Source: a virus. From it: a stretch of DNA of 35,339 bases. The notes under the pieces were generated by a model. That model did no database searches. It was not told where the DNA came from and saw only the letters and a program-made list of their open reading frames with translations. The stretch spans positions 1-35,339 of IMG/VR virus record IMGVR_UViG_3300049811_000173. One strand, written 5' to 3'. Positions 27,340-32,202 of the stretch are shown here, piece after piece (positions within the stretch are counted from its first letter, which is position 1; every line of letters starts with the position of its first letter). Made by a program: the position numbers and the translations under genes.

Positions 27340-29772
27340 TTAGTCGCGATCGTGCAATGCCGCCGCAACGATCTTCTTCAGTTCGGTCGCGTCCACGACC
27401 TCCTTGCCGAGCTTGCGCTTCCGGCGGAGGATCTTCTCGACGCGATCCTCGACCGTGCCGGTGCACAGCATCTCGTAGATCGTCACCGGCTTCGTCTTGT
27501 TCATGCTGAGCCGGTGGCAGCGATCCTCGGCTTGCGTGTTCATGTCCGGCACGTACAGCTTGTCGAGGAAGATCATGTTGGACGCCGCAGTGAAGTCGAG
27601 ACCGACTCCAGCTACCTGCAGCATGGCCACTAGCGCCCCGGCAGCAGGTGCGTCGCGCCACTCGTGGACCAGTGGCACGCGAAGCTTCTGGGGCACGTCA
27701 CCGTGCATCTGGTAGACCGGCACCTTGATGGCGGCCAGACGGGTGACCATGGCCTCCAGCACGCCGCGGAACTGAGTGAAGATGACAACCTTCTCCCCGT
27801 CCTCGATCAGCTGGGCAGCAATCTCGACGGCTCGGTCGAGCTTGACCGACTCGTCCTCGAACCCCAGCGTGGCCGGGGTTCCGGTGATCTGCTTCAGGCG
27901 CAGCATCTTGGTCATGGCGTTCTCGAGTTCCATGGGGTCCGGGTTGCCGGGCACCTCCAACTGCAACTCGTCGGTGGCCTGTTTGTAGAGCTTGGTCTGC
28001 AGTGGCGACAGGGGGACGTGCACCGGCACGTAGTTCTTGGGCGGCAGCTGGATCATCTCGGACTTCAGTCGCCGCAGCATGTAGCGGTCGAGGATCTCGA
28101 CCAGTTCGAGGCGGTTCTTGACGCCGGTCACCTGCTTCCCTTGGAACCCGCCCATCTTGCAGAAGTGCTCACGGAATCGCCAGTAGCTCGGGAACTCGTG
28201 CGGGTTGATGCGGTGCAGGATGCCCCAGAGCTCGTCGGGTTGGTTGAGCATCGGGGACCCGGTCAGCAGGAAGGAGCGCTTCGAGAAGATGTTGTGGCAC
28301 GCCTTCGTGCGCTTGGACTTGGGGTTCTTGAGGTAGTGCGCCTCGTCGAAGATGAGCACGTCGATCACGCAGGCGTTGATGGCGTCGAGGTGTCCCGGCA
28401 CCTGCTCGTAGTTCATGATGAGGATGTCGGTGTCTGGGTCGGTGCGAAAGTCCTCGATGATGGCCTCGCGCTTCTTGGGGGTTCCCTGACACACCACTGC
28501 CTTGAAGGCGGTGTGCTCGGCGATCTCTGAGGCCCAGTTGTCCTTCAGGGTGGCCGGGCAGACGATCAGGGTCTTGCTGGCGTTGCCCAGCTGGTAGTCG
28601 ACTGCTGTCACGGCGAGCACCTGAAGGCTGTTGTGGGTGACGGTGTAGCCGTTGGTCAGGTACAGGCCCTCGCTGTCGTCCACCGTGATGCAGCAGCACT
28701 CGGACTCGCCAGCGGGACTGATCTGCGTCACGTACTTGCTGGGGAAGGGGGTGTCGATGGACACCCCGGTGACGCTGTGCCAGTAGTGGGGCATGTCCAT
28801 GTGGATGAAGGTTCCATCCACCGTGGCGCCGATGCCCAGCGACCGGGCAAGGCTGGCAAAGCCCTCCACCACGTTCGCATTTGTGGAGTAGAACAGGTCC
28901 AGCCCAAACCGCCACCCGGTGGAGGCGCCGATGCCGCCGACGGCGAGCATGGCTCCGCTCAGGAACAGGGTGCGTGTCGCGATCGACTCGAACATGAGCC
29001 ACTCGGGGAACTTGCGTCGGGTGGTCATGCGATGGAACCCGAGGGCCTCGAGGTTCTGGTAGAAGGCAGTTAGGGCTTCGGGGCGCTGGTCGTCAGGCGC
29101 CAGTCCCTTGTTCTCGAAGCTCAGCAGGGTGTCCGGCACCGTCAAGTGCTCGAGCGACGGGTACCGCTTGGTGCTGGCCTTGAAGCAGGCGAAGTCGGAG
29201 CGCTTGTTCTCGAAGGTGAAACCCCCGGCGTAGGCGAACCCCGCCGCCATCGGGTCCAGCTGGTCGGGCCACAGGGCGCCCGTCTGCGCCGTCGCCACCG
29301 GCATGGGGAGCCGCCATCGGTGGCGCCCGTCAGGGGTGCTGACACCGGCGTCGTGCAGTTCGGTGGTGGTCAGGTCCACCCAGCCGTCCGCATCGCTGAG
29401 CACGGTCCACAGGTGGTCCCACGATGCCACCGTGGACGTGCCGTCGCTGAACGACACCCGTGCCACCGGGGTGACCCCCTGCGGGTGCACCGCAGCGACG
29501 CGTTGCATGCCACCAGAGGGTCGGCAGATCACGTCACCGGGCTGCAGGGCGCCGATCGGGCGCCAGCCCTCGGGGCAGAGCACCGGCCTGTCGATCGGCT
29601 GAGCCTTGCCGCCGCCCATCTCGTCGGCCAGCAAGAAGCTGTTCAGGCGAGCGAGGTGGCGCACGCCGTCGATCTGGTGCTGGTAGAACTTGACCTCGTC
29701 CTTGATCTTGGAGAGTGCGCCGCGGCCGTTGCCTGCGGTGCCGTACTCGGGGGCCGTGGTGTCCAGTGTCAC
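27340..29772 (-). CDS. SNF2-type DEAH helicase interrupted by an intein
   Basis: An 810-residue precursor; excising residues 57-381 leaves a 485-residue helicase. The start is GTG 29772, nine bases after AGAGGA; the opening reaching 30036 overlaps another gene and encodes Arg/Pro-rich nonsense. Before the intein lie FYQHQIDGVRHLARLNSFLLADEMGGGK, the Q-motif and first part of Walker A, completed by Ser382 after splicing. Further motifs are DEAH (476-479), FLLTGSPMLNQ, KVVIFTQFRG, VYQMHGD, and QAEDRCHRL as motif VI. These define a SNF2-family double-stranded DNA translocase. Phage members may remodel replication intermediates or protein-DNA complexes. Because the intein splits the ATP-binding loop, the protein should be inactive until it splices. 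Confidence 0.9.
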   Translation of the reverse strand: MTLDTTAPEYGTAGNGRGALSKIKDEVKFYQHQIDGVRHLARLNSFLLADEMGGGKAQPIDRPVLCPEGWRPIGALQPGDVICRPSGGMQRVAAVHPQGVTPVARVSFSDGTSTVASWDHLWTVLSDADGWVDLTTTELHDAGVSTPDGRHRWRLPMPVATAQTGALWPDQLDPMAAGFAYAGGFTFENKRSDFACFKASTKRYPSLEHLTVPDTLLSFENKGLAPDDQRPEALTAFYQNLEALGFHRMTTRRKFPEWLMFESIATRTLFLSGAMLAVGGIGASTGWRFGLDLFYSTNANVVEGFASLARSLGIGATVDGTFIHMDMPHYWHSVTGVSIDTPFPSKYVTQISPAGESECCCITVDDSEGLYLTNGYTVTHNSLQVLAVTAVDYQLGNASKTLIVCPATLKDNWASEIAEHTAFKAVVCQGTPKKREAIIEDFRTDPDTDILIMNYEQVPGHLDAINACVIDVLIFDEAHYLKNPKSKRTKACHNIFSKRSFLLTGSPMLNQPDELWGILHRINPHEFPSYWRFREHFCKMGGFQGKQVTGVKNRLELVEILDRYMLRRLKSEMIQLPPKNYVPVHVPLSPLQTKLYKQATDELQLEVPGNPDPMELENAMTKMLRLKQITGTPATLGFEDESVKLDRAVEIAAQLIEDGEKVVIFTQFRGVLEAMVTRLAAIKVPVYQMHGDVPQKLRVPLVHEWRDAPAAGALVAMLQVAGVGLDFTAASNMIFLDKLYVPDMNTQAEDRCHRLSMNKTKPVTIYEMLCTGTVEDRVEKILRRKRKLGKEVVDATELKKIVAAALHDRD
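28630..29604 (-). other. Class 3 intein with degenerate LAGLIDADG region (325 aa)
   Basis: The insertion lies between Lys56 and Ser382 of the helicase Walker A loop. Intein residue 1 is Ala, so the usual Cys/Ser nucleophile is missing. Instead Trp66 (in SWDHLW, with His64), Cys305 (in CCCITVDD) and Thr323 (THN end) give the W-C-T set that defines class 3 inteins. Splicing there starts from the block F Cys and ends on the +1 residue, here Ser. His324-Asn325 form the C-terminal cleavage site. The middle, about 112-262, resembles a two-motif LAGLIDADG endonuclease (AAGFAYAGG at 120-128; FLSGAMLAVGG at 214-224; then STNANVVEGFASLARSLG). The catalytic Asp positions are Gly128 and Val222, so the nuclease is probably dead. 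Confidence 0.85.
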
Positions 29773-29785
29773 GGTGGGGGTCCTC

Positions 29786-30505
29786 TCAGAAGGGGTGCGG
29801 GGTGATCGGGTCGCCCGGCTGGGAATCGCGGAGGTGAACGAAGAAGTTCTTGGCCGCATGCTGGCCCTCAAGCCACTTGTAAACCCGTGCGATGTCGGAC
29901 TGCGGCAGGTTCTCGATGGCGTCCTCGGCGATCTGCTGGGTCTGGCCGTCAGCGTAGGTGATCCGCCAGCCGCGCATGCCCTCGACCTCGTAGACGGATG
30001 TGATCTCGGCGGGGTGCAGGGTGGGGCCGGTGGCATGCACCACAGGCGGCTGTAGCTGGATCGTCAGAGAGCCGGGCGGAACCTTCATCTTCTTCCATGG
30101 CTCAAAGTGAAGCTGGGAGCGCAGCACCATCAGTGCCCACTCGGGCGCAAGATCGTCGGCCTGAAACGTGAGGATCAGGCCCAGCGAGGTTGCCCTGAGC
30201 ACCCCGGTCAGGTAGAGGTGGTTGGCGTTGACGAAGGTCTCGACTTCACCGATGCCGTCGTTCATGAAGCGCACCGGGTGACTCCGCTCGTGGAGGCAGG
30301 TCACATCCAGATGCGAGTACTCCATCGGCAGGTTGAGGCTCGAGAGCTTGTTGCCGGGGTTCGGCACTACGAAGTAGACGCGGAAGGTTCCGGGGTCGTC
30401 CTGCTTCCACTGCAGGCGGTTGAGGAGACCGGCAACGATGTCCTCGGGTGGGTCGACCCTGAGTCGGCTGATGGGGTGGTTGTCAGTGGGCTTCTTGGGG
30501 GGCAT
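29786..30505 (-). CDS. Hypothetical protein (239 aa)
   Basis: A 239-residue protein, ATG 30505 with GAGG seven bases ahead, overlapping the upstream gene by 23 bases. The centre has alternating strands with conserved-looking features (FRVYFVVPNPGNKLSSLNLPMEYSH; HLYLTGVLRATSLGLILTF), followed by EWALMVLRSQLHFEP. The C-terminal third (VYEVEGMRGWRITYADGQTQQIAED) resembles a small barrel with a peptide-loop. No family is recognised. It ends 13 bases before the SNF2 helicase start, so the two are probably expressed together and may be partners. Confidence 0.6.
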   Translation of the reverse strand: MPPKKPTDNHPISRLRVDPPEDIVAGLLNRLQWKQDDPGTFRVYFVVPNPGNKLSSLNLPMEYSHLDVTCLHERSHPVRFMNDGIGEVETFVNANHLYLTGVLRATSLGLILTFQADDLAPEWALMVLRSQLHFEPWKKMKVPPGSLTIQLQPPVVHATGPTLHPAEITSVYEVEGMRGWRITYADGQTQQIAEDAIENLPQSDIARVYKWLEGQHAAKNFFVHLRDSQPGDPITPHPF

Positions 30506-31311: not shown

Positions 31312-31586
31312 CAGTCGGGCACCTTCCTGTTGAGCGACTCCCAGTCGCGAGCCTTGTCGAGCAGCTGATCCGCCAGCTGGTGCAGGTTGTCTGCAACTTC
31401 CGAGTCGAGCTCGATGCCGAGGTCGTGCTGGGCGTCGAGGATGGTCTGGATGCTCTGGGCGTAGGCGTACAGCGCCGAGGTGGCGAACACGTCCTTGGAG
31501 CGAATGACGAAGTAGGTGCCCTCGAGGAGTGGCTCGTCCGAGCCGACCTTGGTGACGACGTACTTCTCGGTGTATTCGGCGCTCAC
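31311..31586 (-). CDS. Hypothetical protein (91 aa)
   Basis: A 91-residue protein from GTG 31586, with AAGGAG six bases upstream and a one-base overlap with the previous stop (TAGTG). The far longer opening to 32168 is a shadow across two other genes. Residues 1-40 are beta-like (EKYVVTKVGSDEPLLEGTYFVIRSKDVFA); residues 40-91 are helical (ALYAYAQSIQTILDAQ; ADNLHQLADQLLDKARDW). No family is assigned, but the two-part layout and size resemble small phage proteins of unknown function. Confidence 0.6.
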   Translation of the reverse strand: MSAEYTEKYVVTKVGSDEPLLEGTYFVIRSKDVFATSALYAYAQSIQTILDAQHDLGIELDSEVADNLHQLADQLLDKARDWESLNRKVPD

Positions 31587-32107
31587 TACTTCTCCTTGTG
31601 TGCGTTGCGGATGGACATGGCCCGATCGAACTCGGACGCGATGGTGGGGTGCTGATCGAACGGCACCCAGATGAAGTCGGTTCGCCTCTGCGGGTTGAGT
31701 CGGTCCCAGTAGCCCCACGTCCGTCGCCGGGGTCCGGTCAGCAGGAGGGTCCACGTCGGGACTCGAACGAGGTGACGGATGTAGTGGGACGCAGTGGCCC
31801 GCTTGACGTTGACTCGACGGACCAACCTGTACTTGACCTTCCAGCCGGGCTGGTCCCGAGTGTCGGTGTCGGTCATCTCCCAGTAGCCGCCCCGCAGCAC
31901 GAAGCTGATGAAGTCCCACGGGTGGTCGTGGAGCACAGCGCGGCTGTCGGGTCGATCCATGCGGTGGACGTAGATCGCGAACAGGGGAGTGCGCACGATC
32001 ACGTAGCGGGTGAGGTAAGTCTCCAGCGGTTCGTCCAGATCGGGGACCTCGAACTTGCGCAGTAGGCCCCAGCGGCGACCCTTGCCCTCGGGGCGGAAGA
32101 TGCTCAT
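31586..32107 (-). CDS. Cupin-like protein of unknown function
   Basis: A 173-residue protein from ATG 32107, fixed by an ATGA overlap with the 32-residue gene upstream. The centre shows LHDHPWDFISFVLRGGYWE, with His60, Asp61, His62 and Glu77, the metal-site pattern of a cupin barrel, followed by HYIRHLVRVPTWTLLLTG. Phage genomes often carry this type of HDHPW protein without known function. The barrel could bind iron or another metal and act as an oxygenase, or it could bind a nucleotide or sugar. The residues before and after are rich in Arg and Trp. The enzyme class cannot be told from the sequence. Confidence 0.6.
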   Translation of the reverse strand: MSIFRPEGKGRRWGLLRKFEVPDLDEPLETYLTRYVIVRTPLFAIYVHRMDRPDSRAVLHDHPWDFISFVLRGGYWEMTDTDTRDQPGWKVKYRLVRRVNVKRATASHYIRHLVRVPTWTLLLTGPRRRTWGYWDRLNPQRRTDFIWVPFDQHPTIASEFDRAMSIRNAHKEK

Positions 32108-32202
32108 GCCCACCCCCAGAGGTGCAATAGACCCATGACCACGTAGTGACCCTTGATCTTGCCGCCACGGTGGGCGGCCCGAATGACCTCGATGTCGCTC
32201 AT
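32104..32202 (-). CDS. 32-residue microprotein between overlapping genes
   Basis: The ATG at 32202 overlaps the upstream stop (ATGA), and its own TGA (32104-32106) overlaps the following ATG (ATGA). The peptide begins MSDIEVIRAAHRGGKIKGHY and ends VVMGLLHLWGWA. A charged N-terminal half (with GGKIKG) is followed by a hydrophobic, Trp-containing end that may associate with membrane or a partner. Both 4-base overlaps follow the rule of the surrounding genes, which is the main argument that it is real. No family is known. Confidence 0.6.
   Translation of the reverse strand: MSDIEVIRAAHRGGKIKGHYVVMGLLHLWGWA

Follow-up and report, generated by a model that had tools for sequence, protein, structure and literature searches.

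A phage SNF2 helicase with its Walker A motif split by a predicted class 3 intein whose homing endonuclease has decayed

What is a stretch of 325 residues doing between the lysine and the serine of an ATP-binding loop? The question is raised by one gene of a 35-kb IMG/VR virus record (IMGVR_UViG_3300049811_000173; 35,339 nt, all of it analyzed here and called the window), which also carries tail, endolysin, exonuclease, methyltransferase, RusA-like, and beta-clamp genes. Its tape measure protein and the helicase discussed below both indicate relatives among Gordonia and Rhodococcus phages, and in ReqiDocB7 the helicase is likewise close to DnaN. Elsewhere in the window, a minus-strand gene (31586-32113) encodes a protein matching phrog_4786, annotated as cysteine dioxygenase (E 2e-28). 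The original prediction was that a phage SNF2 helicase carries a class 3 intein in Walker A, and it agrees with the profile matches, predicted fold, Trp-Cys-Thr signature residues (W-C-T), intein-free alleles, and same-site relatives described here. The insert is thus very probably (about 93%) a class 3 intein between the Walker A Lys and Ser, predicted to splice and with a homing endonuclease that is probably dead. It is a further example of a known intein type at a known kind of site.

The interrupted helicase and its intein-free relatives

The stop-to-ATG frame begins at 30036 and runs into the upstream gene; a GTG at 29772 is preceded by a ribosome-binding-like GAGAGG, and precursor length is counted from there. 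The features are as follows:

27340..29772, minus strand: precursor ORF, 810 aa counted from GTG 29772
29605..29772, minus strand: N-extein, 56 aa, with C-terminal ...LLADEMGGGK, the first part of Walker A
28630..29604, minus strand: predicted class 3 intein, 325 aa, Ala1 to Asn325
29389..29604, minus strand: N-terminal splicing blocks A and B, intein residues 1-72; DHLW contains His64 and Trp66
28750..29268, minus strand: decayed LAGLIDADG homing endonuclease (HEN) domain, intein residues 113-285; Gly127 (block C) and Val222 (block E) in place of catalytic Asp
28630..28749, minus strand: C-terminal splicing blocks F and G, intein residues 286-325; Cys305, Thr323, His324, and Asn325
27343..28629, minus strand: C-extein, 429 aa, SNF2 ATPase core and Helicase_C; first residue is Ser+1 of Walker A

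The insert (29604..28630 on the minus strand, residues 145-469 of the stop-to-ATG ORF) lies precisely between the Walker A Lys and Ser, with the junctions ...LLADEMGGGK / AQPID...VTHN / SLQVLAV... (slashes mark junctions throughout). The coordinates, length, Ala start, His-Asn end, Trp66, Cys305, Thr323, and run of cysteines at 303-305 given in the original prediction are all exact. The exteins have both Pfam domains of an SNF2 helicase, the SNF2-related domain (PF00176, 5e-43, interrupted by the insert) and Helicase_C (PF00271, 2e-14), and the predicted spliced protein would be 485 aa, given the GTG start.

The best phage matches to this spliced helicase are from Rhodococcus and Gordonia phages (36-46% identity over ~93-99% of its length), and the five of these that were aligned have an uninterrupted Walker A motif, GLGKS or GLGKT. 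A further 80 helicase loci were found in IMG/VR, the top one 51% identical; overall, the nearest helicases lacking the insert, from Rhodococcus and Gordonia phages and IMG/VR contigs, are 33-51% identical. The search for intein-free homologues that had been proposed with the original prediction thus yielded an unbroken GxGK[ST] in 84 of the 85 relatives checked: this is an in-frame insert at a conserved motif, missing from orthologues, and an ordinary helicase domain common to all relatives is ruled out. The sole exception, an IMG/VR SNF2 relative (L074:1530-3788), has a class 1-like mini-intein in the same P-loop, inserted slightly (a few residues) upstream of where the class 3 inteins lie, with Cys1, His-Asn, and Cys+1 (LADDMG/CIAGD...LVHN/CGKT).

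Close relatives of the locus were found neither by megablast of 6 kb against phages nor by IMG/VR peptide-pattern scans with the intein alone or the C-extein alone, which gave no matches. The closest intein homologues are only ~32-35% identical. The extein groups with actinobacteriophage helicases free of inteins, whereas the identity of the intein to any other is only ~30%, a contrast consistent with horizontal arrival of the intein. The HEN region is not distinct in GC by codon position or in codon usage, and so gives no sign of recent foreign origin.

Class assignment and same-site inteins

A profile made from other phage inteins only, with the window sequence left out, matches the ORF at E=2.5e-43, too strong for chance, and this is its sole match in the six-frame window. 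By PDB sequence search, the top match is the class 3 DnaB intein of Mycobacterium smegmatis (Msm; 6bs8, 4e-6). An AlphaFold2 model (35 sequences, pLDDT 78, pTM 0.79; Foldseek was also run) matches 6bs8 with Z 18.8 and rmsd 1.4 Å over 123 residues, and, across 310 residues, the entire PI-SceI intein-endonuclease (Z 24.6), although its HEN loops are of low confidence, with pLDDT <50 in places.

Blocks A, B, F, and G of a HINT domain are all present, with His B:10, a C-terminal His-Asn, and Ser at +1. Position 1 is Ala rather than Ser, Cys, or Thr, and the +1 residue is one of the two (Ser or Thr) required for class 3. The published signature positions B:12, F:4, and G:5 (PMC5222942) are occupied, by alignment, by Trp66, Cys305, and Thr323. 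In an alignment with 47 distinct phage relatives these columns are nearly invariant (Trp66 in 45, Cys305 in all 47, Thr323 in 46), as are those of His64 (46), His324 (46), and Asn325 (47). Several PHROG profiles also match the intein region (28630-29604), namely those for a DnaC-like loader (phrog_50), terminases, and a primase; these profiles therefore seem to include intein sequence, and may mislabel proteins.

Most of the related inteins in phage and viral loci break a P-loop at Lys/Thr or Lys/Ser. Two, in L092 (IMGVR_UViG_3300012041_000020) and L002 (Brevundimonas phage Papperlapapp, ON529860), are same-site class 3 inteins in SNF2 helicases; they share the extein family, the Walker A Lys/Thr or Lys/Ser site, and W-C-T with the window intein, and are ~30% identical to it. 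L002 keeps Asp in both HEN motifs, and L092 has Asp in block E and Asn in block C. Bacterial class 3 inteins at the same step, in ORFs matching the SNF2 extein, were found in Anaerolineae, Chthoniobacterales, Eremiobacterota, two Hymenobacter, Acidobacteria, Bacteroidaceae, and Bacteroidota. A separate group of class 3 inteins, in L163, L174, L188, and many other loci and common in Streptomyces and relatives, is at a non-Walker A site, PLAYMRGR/TLND, in what we take from its motif to be possibly a PhoH-like protein.

These relatives were also compared in a tree of 83 inteins, on which the SNF2 inteins need nine label changes (shuffled mean 11.4). Few of its branches are strongly supported, and those that are force only two changes. 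A single SNF2-specific intein lineage was considered but not recovered: the SNF2 inteins are not one clade on this tree, on which support is limited. The window intein itself is on a very long branch, with no supported neighbor.

Class 3 inteins in SNF2 proteins are not new. One from Deinococcus is already known, as cited in PMC6195587 and PMC3196547; in the D. radiodurans Snf2 protein (Brace et al. 2010), a branched intermediate at the block F Cys was, according to these citing descriptions, detected experimentally. Unlike that of the window its host is a bacterium, and the likeness is drawn from the citing descriptions rather than from sequence or site. Two further counterparts, Msm DnaBi1 and MchDnaB1 (6bs8, 6rix, 6riy), share the P-loop insertion, Ala1, W-C-T, Ser+1, and the HINT fold, but are mini-inteins without a HEN, in a DnaB extein, and have a regulatory Cys48 for which the window intein has no equivalent. 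Mycobacteriophage counterparts, whether as phage class 3 or as phage helicase inteins, include MP-Bethlehem DnaB, MP-Catera Gp206, and the HEL inteins of cluster C1. The "classic" Lys/Thr P-loop insertion has been described in mycobacteriophage inteins (PMC5050341, PMC3196547); the HEL inteins, which are HepA-related (PMC5050341), are comparable as helicase inteins.

Decay of the homing endonuclease

The segment separating blocks B and F is a domain with a predicted LAGLIDADG fold, as judged from the PI-SceI match of the model; its sequence match to Hom_end is weak (E 0.034, below the cut-off). The block C motif DPYxLGxxLGDG reads DPMAAGFAYAGG in the window intein, and the block E motif GLMDTDG reads GAMLAVG. 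The catalytic Asp is thus missing from both: in block C it is replaced by Gly127 (Asp in 43 of the 47 relatives, Asn in three) and in block E by Val222 (Asp in 44 of 47), with the Asp at 220 changed to Leu as well. No other alignment row with a full-length endonuclease shows loss of both.

Divergence extends beyond the two motifs. Identity of the HEN to the family consensus is 0.37, vs. 0.70 ± 0.06 for the relatives (z -5.5, or -3.5 with both motifs masked), while that of the splicing blocks is ordinary (z -0.7 and -0.9). The scan pattern used for genome_contigs required an intact HEN motif, a possible selection bias, but restricting the comparison to viral rows, which came mostly from a splicing-block pattern, did not change the outcome. 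Among viral rows, the end branch of the window intein is 3.85 for HEN columns (median 0.86) and 0.86 for splicing columns (median 0.45), or ~4-5 and ~2 times the relatives' median, respectively.

With both catalytic Asp lost and the domain strongly diverged, homing is probably dead, a decay (Gly127, Val222, and the long HEN branch) that had been missed in the original prediction. The endonuclease reading frame is still open, as production of the helicase requires. The simplest inference from this one sequence and its relatives is that splicing was retained, following a past homing phase, while the endonuclease decayed.

Splicing, persistence, and possible roles

A phage SNF2 helicase would thus have been invaded by an intein at the Lys/Ser site of its Walker A loop. 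In the translated precursor, the Lys-Ala1 peptide bond would be attacked by Cys305 (block F:4), the N-extein transferred to Ser+1, and the intein freed by cyclization of Asn325; an acyl shift would then link GGGK to S, making the ATP-binding loop whole again. These steps are modeled on biochemically studied class 3 inteins, and for the window intein are suggested by its residues and predicted fold. It is a sound inference that the helicase is inactive before splicing. The intein probably persists both by splicing and because its clean deletion from an active site would be difficult. Slow or failed splicing is possible, since the splicing blocks have evolved somewhat faster than the median.

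Could splicing also regulate the helicase? By analogy with Msm DnaBi1, the precedent for such a role, the intein could possibly be a redox or stress switch, as the original prediction supposed: oxidation of Cys303-305, or zinc at Cys305, might keep the helicase off until conditions are reducing. In Msm DnaBi1, oxidation acts via Cys48-Cys118, with the class 3 nucleophile taking part in a regulatory disulfide (PMC6195587), and zinc also inhibits splicing (PMC7360933); the window intein has three consecutive cysteines (303-305), in addition to C10, C27, and C140. The position corresponding to Msm Cys48 is not occupied by Cys, however; among the 47 phage relatives, Cys303 is found in nine and Cys304 in none, so that no conserved switch is visible; and sensitivity to oxidation is general to enzymes with a Cys nucleophile. 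A redox or metal switch is accordingly unlikely. The same CCC run is found in two bacterial inteins.

A broader version is domestication, in which the endonuclease is dead and splicing, kept and possibly acting via Cys303-304-305, times or conditions activation of the SNF2 helicase. This would be compatible with HEN decay and retention of splicing, but no function is needed to explain that decay, and it is an improbable reading.

Still less probably, the intein is a splicing-dead pseudogene, with the helicase lost or supplied in trans. Its endonuclease has decayed, and there is a precedent for a splicing-dead class 3 intein, Arth_1007 of Arthrobacter FB24 (PMC3196547); that pseudogene, however, lacks Cys F:4 and His B:10, whereas the window intein keeps every catalytic residue. 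Its decay is centered on the HEN, sparing the splicing blocks, and both exteins are open, full length, and have their conserved motifs. There is next to no chance that the 325 residues form an ordinary insertion domain of the helicase, never removed, as this stretch is missing from nearly all relatives, would break Walker A, and has a predicted HINT fold with a complete set of splicing residues.

Read as a class 3 intein that probably no longer homes, the insert is a clean phage case of recurrent class 3 insertion between the Walker A Lys and Ser/Thr. A decayed endonuclease with splicing blocks kept is a stage predicted by homing-cycle models. For comparison, the survey supplies several same-site inteins from phage and bacterial SNF2 genes, and the window intein should be useful in asking whether persistence without homing comes from difficulty of deletion or from acquired usefulness.
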